Source: Alphaproteobacteria bacterium (GTDB lineage: Bacteria; Pseudomonadota; Alphaproteobacteria; SHVP01). Taken from it: DNA of 43,408 nt. The stretch is from assembly GCA_016869765.1 (NCBI GenBank), contig VGES01000029.1, positions 1-43,408 on the forward strand, in the 5' to 3' direction. The notes below the pieces were generated by a model, which was not told where the DNA came from, did not search any database, and was given only the letters and a program-made list of their open reading frames with translations. The translations under genes were made by a program, and so were the position numbers. This document shows positions 1 to 300 of this stretch, one piece after another; the stretch's first letter is position 1, and every line of letters begins with the position of its first letter.

Positions 1-1
1 C

Positions 2-112
2 GATGCCCGAACCCCCGAGGCGACCTGGCGAGGCATCGGTCAACTCCTCGAGGCCTTCTCCCCTCAAGAGTGCGCCAACTACCTCACCAACGCCGGATAT
101 GCTTCAACCTAA
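2..112 (+). CDS. IS630-type transposase, C-terminal end (partial)
   Basis: The open frame enters from the left edge and gives the last 36 residues of a protein ending at a TAA (110-112). The tail carries the pattern EECANYxxNAGY-like (here QECANYLTNAGYAST), which I recognise as the end of IS630-family DDE transposases, just after the last catalytic Glu region. The catalytic residues lie outside the window, so whether the element is intact cannot be judged. No clear inverted terminal repeat was identified downstream; the next feature is a tRNA-like gene on the opposite strand only about 40 bases away. Family assignment rests on this short tail alone. Confidence 0.7.
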   Translation, partial: DARTPEATWRGIGQLLEAFSPQECANYLTNAGYAST

Positions 113-130
113 GAGAATCGCGCTCTAGTC

Positions 131-200
131 TAAAAAAATAGAGCGTGGAGGGTGTGGGGGATAAGGGAGTCGAACCCTTACGCGGCCTAGGCCTCCACGC
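131..200 (-). terminator. Possible terminator hairpin overlapping the tRNA-like gene
   Basis: On the minus strand GCGTGGAGG (200-192, end of anticodon arm and variable arm of the tRNA-like gene) is perfectly complementary to CCTCCACGC (151-143) just downstream of the tRNA 3' end. This is followed by seven T (138-132). The arrangement resembles a long-looped intrinsic terminator that would compete with the cloverleaf. A second small inverted repeat, CGCTCTA (121-127) and TAGAGCG (139-145), flanks the T run. Whether either hairpin acts is inference. Confidence 0.3.
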
Positions 201-239
201 ATTGGCAATGCATTGCGGCTGCCGTTTCGCCAGTCCCCC
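155..239 (-). tRNA. Class II tRNA-like gene with anticodon GCC (Gly-type codon)
   Basis: The minus strand folds as a cloverleaf. Acceptor: five G at 239-235 plus A234 pair with T161 and C160-156; the seventh pair (C233/A162) is mismatched, while T180-A162 can extend the T stem to six pairs. D stem 230-228/217-215 with the GG pair at 223-222. Anticodon stem 213-209/201-197, loop TTGCCAA, anticodon GCC at 206-204. Long variable arm of about 16 nt (196-181) with GGCC..GGCC self-complementarity. T stem 179-175/167-163 with loop TTCGACT. Discriminator A155; the next bases are CAC, so CCA is not encoded. Bacterial class II tRNAs are normally Leu, Ser, Tyr or Sec; GCC reads glycine GGC, so charging identity is unclear. 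It could be a non-canonical tRNA, a degraded Leu/Ser-like tRNA, or a tRNA-like relic next to a transposase. Confidence 0.6.
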
Positions 240-300
240 ACAGCGCACTGCACTATCTCCTATGCAGGGGTTAGGGCGATTTTCGGCCGGGAGCCGCTCC

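Follow-up and report, generated by a model that had tools for sequence, protein, structure and literature searches.

A tRNA-Leu-derived RNA with non-leucine anticodons and a 3' tail complementary to its own tRNA: a candidate self-locked tRNA or two-state switch in bacteria

Introduction

The closest described systems are the allo-tRNAs and a number of irregular allo-tRNA-like genes, those of Mukai et al. 2017 as reviewed in PMC7609411. Two properties of the tRNA machinery are also important here: bacterial LeuRS, as known from E. coli, reads A73, A15-U48, G18G19 and A20a and makes no use of the anticodon (PMC9976931), and pairing between the leader and the 3' end of a tRNA precursor slows RNase P (PMC9433436). 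The RNA family described below bears on the question of whether tRNAs devoted to miscoding are maintained in bacteria and of how they would be controlled: it provides a concrete, testable case that combines a tRNA body, the anticodon of another amino acid and a tail evolving to stay complementary.

The locus was encountered in the window, that is, the whole stretch of 43,408 nucleotides that was analysed, which is the entire contig C29 of an alphaproteobacterial genome assembly (3.99 Mb, 164 contigs). An earlier note, made from these letters alone, had drawn attention to a class II tRNA-like gene with a long variable arm and a glycine anticodon.

A tRNA-Leu body carrying a foreign anticodon

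Both ARAGORN and the Rfam tRNA family place a tRNA at this locus; with 38.5 bits against a gathering score of 29 it qualifies as a member of RF00005, in a separate Rfam search that recovered what a fast scan of the whole window had missed. The class II fold, the long arm and the GCC anticodon of the earlier note are thus confirmed, and the strand, which it had left unstated, is the minus strand. When the sequences of the members and the window were compared with Rfam 15, no family other than tRNA matched above its gathering score, and neither ARAGORN nor Rfam called the RNA a tmRNA. Read from 239 to 155, the gene is GGGGGAC-TG-GCGAAACGGCAGCCGC-A-ATGCA-TTGCCAA-TGCGT-G-GAGGC-CTAG-GCCGC-GT-AAGGG-TTCGACT-CCCTT-ATCCCCC-A, the last base being A73 at position 155. 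The features of the locus are collected in Table 1.

Table 1. Features of the window copy and its surroundings (positions in the window).
Feature	Position	Strand	Basis
End of multi-copy insertion sequence (transposase C-terminus, terminal repeat ...GCGCTC, TA)	1..127	+	Shared contig ends
T run past the trailer, kept ahead of the IS insertion	132..138	-	Sequence
Trailer CCTCCACGC, the 3' side of helix B, opposite 192-200	143..151	-	Complementarity, covariation
Leu-type class II tRNA-like domain, anticodon GCC, A73, without encoded CCA (A-CACC)	155..239	-	ARAGORN, Rfam, comparison
Variable arm GAGGC-CTAG-GCCGC, supplying the 5' strand of helix A (GGCCTAGGCC)	182..195	-	Covariation, partner swaps
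GCGTGGAGG, the 5' side of helix B (3' strand of the anticodon stem and 5' variable arm)	192..200	-	Complementarity, covariation
Anticodon GCC, loop TTGCCAA at 202-208	204..206	-	ARAGORN; sequence
Leader UGU pairing with A73-C74-A75 (155-153), lengthening the acceptor stem	240..242	-	Sequence
Possible -10 element (GCATAG), weak in the window copy, lying within the conserved leader	261..266	-	Sequence

The acceptor stem (239-233 with 162-156) is fully paired save for a C7.A66 mismatch, which explains the six clean acceptor pairs and the apparent sixth T-stem pair; the odd acceptor/T-arm split remarked upon earlier is therefore real. The variable arm forms a 5-bp stem with one A.G mismatch and a 4-nt loop, and its palindrome GGCCTAGGCC (within 182-195) would also permit pairing with a second molecule of the same RNA. 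The acceptor branch is of the 7/5 type in the window copy, with C7.A66, and in three relatives introduced below (C2, G842 and G795), and the 8/4 or 9/3 branch of the allo-tRNAs was not found. The UGU:ACA pairing between leader and 3' end, which extends the acceptor, occurs in the window copy, C2 and G165, and in both the window copy and C2 the body is followed by A-CACC rather than by an encoded CCA.

As to identity, comparison indicates that the D arm, A15-U48 and the layout of the variable arm derive from tRNA-Leu. The tRNA-Leu(UAA) of the same genome shares these features (D arm TGGCG.AACGGTAGACGC) as well as A73, and differs from the window copy in that the latter has the anticodon GCC, no CCA and a self-complementary tail; the D arm of the C2 copy, TGGCGAAACGGTAGACGC, is one base off the same tRNA. 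A73, A15-U48, G18G19 and A20a can all be read in the window copy, C2, G842 and G795, and are partly lost in G390, G165, G034 and G262. The expectation of the earlier note that A73 and the long arm would suit LeuRS better than GlyRS agrees with this Leu-type D arm, A15-U48 and A73. A tRNA-Gly typically has a class I body, U73 and C2-G71; set beside the genome's own tRNA-Gly(GCC), the present gene, class II and with A73, does not belong to that group. Nor is the anticodon a leucine one (NAG or NAA) in any member: it is GCC in the window copy and C2, and CAC, CGC, CGC, GUC, GUC and GCC in G034, G165, G262, G390, G842 and G795, respectively. C36 is present in all eight, so all would read GNN codons. 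Judged by its sequence, the first domain of the RNA is a class II tRNA derived from tRNA-Leu whose anticodon would now read a GNN codon (GGY in the window copy).

The host genome, with 52 tRNA matches, has a normal class I tRNA-Gly(GCC) together with CCC and TCC tRNA-Gly, and the usual tRNA-Leu genes are present too. CCA is encoded in 47 of its 49 other distinct tRNA genes, one exception abutting a contig end; one tRNA-Gln(TTG) (L022) also seems to be without an encoded CCA.

Family members and distribution

A second copy in the same genome (contig C2, 71609-71703) is 79% identical to the window copy and has a perfect 7-bp acceptor in an intact 7/5 arrangement. BLAST, a genome-wide pattern scan and covariance models yielded six further relatives in six other genomes, most of the genomes compared being metagenome assemblies: G034, G165 and G262, which belong to one genus and occupy the same locus (G868, G999 and G1096 are repeats of these genomes), G390 from a soil MAG (L082), G842 and G795. 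The 63 genome-contig matches of the pattern scan included only three relatives (L082, L089 and L090), the others being ordinary tRNAs or chance. With covariance model R1 the six founders score 129-146 bits, values that are high by construction, and the genes kept outside model building reach 127 (G842) and 117 bits (G795), against at most 76 for ordinary tRNA-Leu and tRNA-Ser; the RF00005 score of G842 is 48.2 bits. The gene is rare: among 385 genomes drawn evenly from the class it is carried only by the window genome and the genus of G034, G165 and G262, and among 398 drawn from the phylum by the window genome alone. Searches of plasmids, phages and IMG/VR with the family members gave no match.

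Across the three members of one genus the RNA is about 70-85% identical, and the downstream flanks drop to about 30%. Neighbours are unrelated in each lineage, and a search across lineages for a conserved neighbour gene found none. In the window, 301-2553 holds an ordinary glutathione S-transferase (minus strand) and an FAD-binding monooxygenase; in G390 (L180:2476-3900) the ribosomal protein operon contains the RNA and a 2OG-oxygenase-like gene in the interval from adk to rpsM. A clearer promoter, TTGAAC-N16-TATGTT, stands upstream of the G390 and G842 copies. The RNA of G842, the copy that encodes CCA, has an intrinsic terminator of classic form, preceded by an extra alternative helix, TTTCAGACGCGG:CCGCGTCTGAAA, which overlaps hairpin E (L165:1335-1505, minus strand). 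In the C2 copy the leader (L003:1485-1515) could also invade the tRNA, since its GCTCCTCAC is exactly complementary, over 9 nt, to the acceptor 5' region. The acceptor stem of G034 is broken, and G262 has U73 and stem mismatches.

The cloverleaf is supported by covariation. In the eight-sequence alignment A5, 94.4% of its cells are paired, and seven pairs show two-sided change against 2.8 expected by shuffling, a number reached in 0 of 500 shuffles, with contributions from the acceptor, anticodon and variable arms alike. Eight homologues with seven co-varying pairs exclude chance as the source of the tRNA fold; the cloverleaf is, on this comparative evidence, under selection. The relatives, whose search had been proposed earlier as a conservation check, keep both the variable arm and a non-Leu anticodon, so that the refuting outcome set out in the earlier note did not arise, and the suggestion of a non-canonical tRNA or tRNA-like regulator is borne out by an eight-member family with a Leu-type body.

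A tail that pairs with the tRNA

The tRNA is the 5' part of an RNA of about 235 nt, the 3' part of which pairs with it. The tail, the second copy and the variation of the anticodon had all escaped the earlier note, whose reading of a class II tRNA with a glycine anticodon fitting LeuRS otherwise stands, its option of decay apart. In order, the tRNA is followed by a trailer, a block, hairpin C and a terminal hairpin E. Helix B denotes the complementarity between the trailer, present in every copy just past A73, and the tRNA segment made up of the anticodon-stem 3' strand and 5' variable arm; helix A denotes that between the variable arm and the loop of hairpin C, which extends over 13 bp in G390 and G842 and 10 in G795; and the loop of hairpin E (AAGGCYGAGAGACC-like) pairs with the block (helix D). 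The strands of helix B are GCGTGGAGG:CCTCCACGC in the window copy, GCGTTGAGG:CCTCAACGC in G034 and G165 and GCGTCGAGAG:CTCTCGACGC in G795, with one mismatch each in G262 and G842. This helix is 94.4% paired, its covariation score is attained in 0 of 500 shuffles, and one of its positions occurs as G-C, U-A and C-G; in five of six copies the trailer complementarity beats the best of 48 normal tRNAs.

When own partners were compared with swapped ones over all permutations of five genes, A, C and E ranked best of 120, B second and D sixth; with the window copy added as a sixth gene, A and C ranked best of 720, E second, B fourth and D sixth, and control pairings ranked 88, 576 and 518. The strand windows for these tests were picked by hand at homologous places, and automatic alignment puts the main ones in the same columns. 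Two pairings run as controls, block to loop C and variable arm to loop E, were unsupported. For helix A the two paralogues of the window genome score 35.0 and 28.7 with their own partners, and 10.5 and 15.0 once the partners are exchanged; helices A, C and D tell the paralogues apart, and the partners in B and E are interchangeable between them. G165 and G262 have a degenerate tail, and G034 has weak D and E helices. Three other accounts of parts of the RNA were dropped: the conserved 3' block as the coding tail of a convergent gene (G390 is without such a gene, and the RNA helices account for the block), reading frames through the tRNA (inconsistent codon pattern) and the trailer CCUCC as an anti-Shine-Dalgarno mimic (G034 and G165 have CCUCA yet keep the pairing).

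Helices A and B between them engage the 3' strand of the anticodon stem and all of the variable arm, taking up the strand 40-60 that the cloverleaf needs, and therefore compete with it. Folded in silico by itself, the tRNA domain of both G390 and G842 gives a textbook cloverleaf with an acceptor probability of 0.98-0.99, which in the full RNA falls to 0.18 and 0.36, respectively. The RNA is predicted to be bistable: in several copies the predicted energies of the cloverleaf and trailer-paired forms differ by no more than about 3.4 kcal/mol, and for the G034, G165 and G390 fragments the trailer-paired form is predicted to be the more stable by 6-9 kcal/mol. Helix A is a pseudoknot, and forcing it without pseudoknots sacrifices hairpin C, at a cost of about 8 kcal/mol.

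An insertion sequence interrupts the window copy

The adjoining transposase end recognised earlier proves to be the end of a multi-copy insertion sequence (IS), which we take to be IS630-like. Bases 1-127 are common, exactly, to several contig ends, terminating ...CGCGCTCTA; the same IS breaks the assembly at contig ends of C3, C18, C32, C38, C45, C67, C94 and C100, and its 36-residue transposase tail had no Pfam match. It splits the RNA just past the trailer. A search with the C2 tail matched the end of contig C25, which by the other IS end (...GAAACGCGCTCTA) reads GGTCCTTCGG...GAGGCCTAGGCCGCC...CCAAGGCTGAAGGATCGCCC. This fragment contains the block, hairpin C and hairpin E and carries the A, C, D and E pairings: its hairpin C holds the exact GGCCTAGGCC complement of the window-copy variable arm, and its hairpin E loop matches its own block (GGTCCTTC:GAAGGATC; in C2, GGTTCCTC:GAGGAATC). 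TA is found at both flanks of the IS, which probably inserts at that dinucleotide. Since the IS ends, the TA flanks and the C25 fragment fit together, the window copy is best described as once complete and now split by the IS, a join of C29 and C25 that is based on IS ends and sequence fit rather than on reads. The window copy is probably disabled, and the C2 paralogue is intact.

Proposed mechanism and alternative explanations

Given that the Leu determinants are kept, that LeuRS ignores the anticodon and that the tail competes with the cloverleaf, we propose that the window gene represents the 5' half of a noncoding RNA with two domains, in which a Leu-type tRNA with a swapped anticodon is held in a bistable, self-locked precursor, to serve as a latent, regulated miscoding tRNA or as a two-state switch; we give this reading a probability of about 0.55. 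While attached, the tail would lock the tRNA out of translation. Cleavage of the tail, with RNase P acting at the 5' end and either RNase Z or some other endonuclease acting at the 3' end, or else a partner in trans, might free the cloverleaf. LeuRS could charge this form, which would then deliver leucine to codons for Gly, Asp, Ala or Val. Misreading of GGC as leucine would carry a high cost, however, and the tRNA may for that reason never be released. The strongest version of the proposal, a new bacterial RNA class in which a complete tRNA whose identity and anticodon do not match is held inactive by a co-evolving tail and released under some condition to recode Gly/Asp/Ala/Val as leucine, is offered as a speculation that we consider doubtful.

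The foremost competitor, although we judge it rather unlikely, is a non-translational regulatory RNA, never charged or used by the ribosome, in which the tRNA fold is a stable module recognised by RNase P, or a decoy, within a two-state switch, sponge or attenuator. Charging cannot be required everywhere, since the acceptor of G034 is broken and G262 has U73 and stem mismatches, and for that genus such poor acceptors make a regulator more likely than an adaptor. The lack of CCA in most copies, the freedom of the anticodon to change, the strong conservation of the self-pairing tail, the promoter-like leader and the G842 terminator point the same way, and a precedent exists in 3'ETS-leuZ, a tRNA-Leu trailer acting as an sRNA sponge. 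Nevertheless, G842, G795 and C2 keep the acceptor stem, T loop, D arm and Leu identity positions, and no conserved neighbour offers itself for regulation in cis. It is important to stress that, should the tRNA never be charged, the family would still be a new class of structured RNA with a tRNA as a switchable module.

A missense tRNA in simple use, resembling allo-tRNAs and with the tail as an incidental trailer, would explain the good cloverleaf and the Leu determinants, and allo-tRNAs with many sense anticodons exist (PMC7609411); it is nonetheless improbable, as the tail co-varies with the tRNA and two Leu tRNAs for GGC beside a single normal tRNA-Gly(GCC) should be very harmful. Decay of a tRNA-Leu, which the earlier note had entertained, could account for C7.A66, the variable-arm mismatch, the IS insertion and the G034 acceptor, but the compensatory changes in cloverleaf and tail, the conservation relative to the flanks and the same anticodon in two paralogues contradict it for the family, even if the window copy itself is interrupted, and we regard it as very improbable. 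Least credible of all is a DNA-level element, such as a recombination site, or a set of ssDNA hairpins belonging to a mobile element, into which a tRNA had been captured: the unrelated neighbours, including the site between adk and rpsM, and the many inverted repeats would suit it, but the G.U pairs fall on the tRNA strand (A.C on the other), the tRNA loops are conserved, no recombinase was recognised nearby and no match came from the plasmids, phages and viral contigs searched.

Comparison with known systems

The proposed self-locked tRNA has an architecture that, judged from sequence comparison, appears not to have been described before; the allo-tRNAs would be its nearest kin, and none of them has a tRNA-complementary tail in the open-access literature searched. 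Like tmRNA, it is a longer RNA with a tRNA-like domain and pseudoknots, but it has a complete tRNA with an anticodon as its 5' part and no tag reading frame was seen. With trailers of the 3'ETS-leuZ type it shares a Leu tRNA precursor and, in that case, a functional trailer; the 3'ETS-leuZ trailer targets sRNAs, whereas the trailer of this family is complementary to its own tRNA. Finally, it resembles the allo-tRNAs in being class II with a sense anticodon foreign to the identity of the body, some allo-tRNA-like genes being irregular, near transposon genes and thought to be regulatory; in contrast to the 8/4 or 9/3, Ser-type branch of the allo-tRNAs, the family is 7/5 and Leu-type with A73, and has a dedicated 3' domain complementary to the tRNA.
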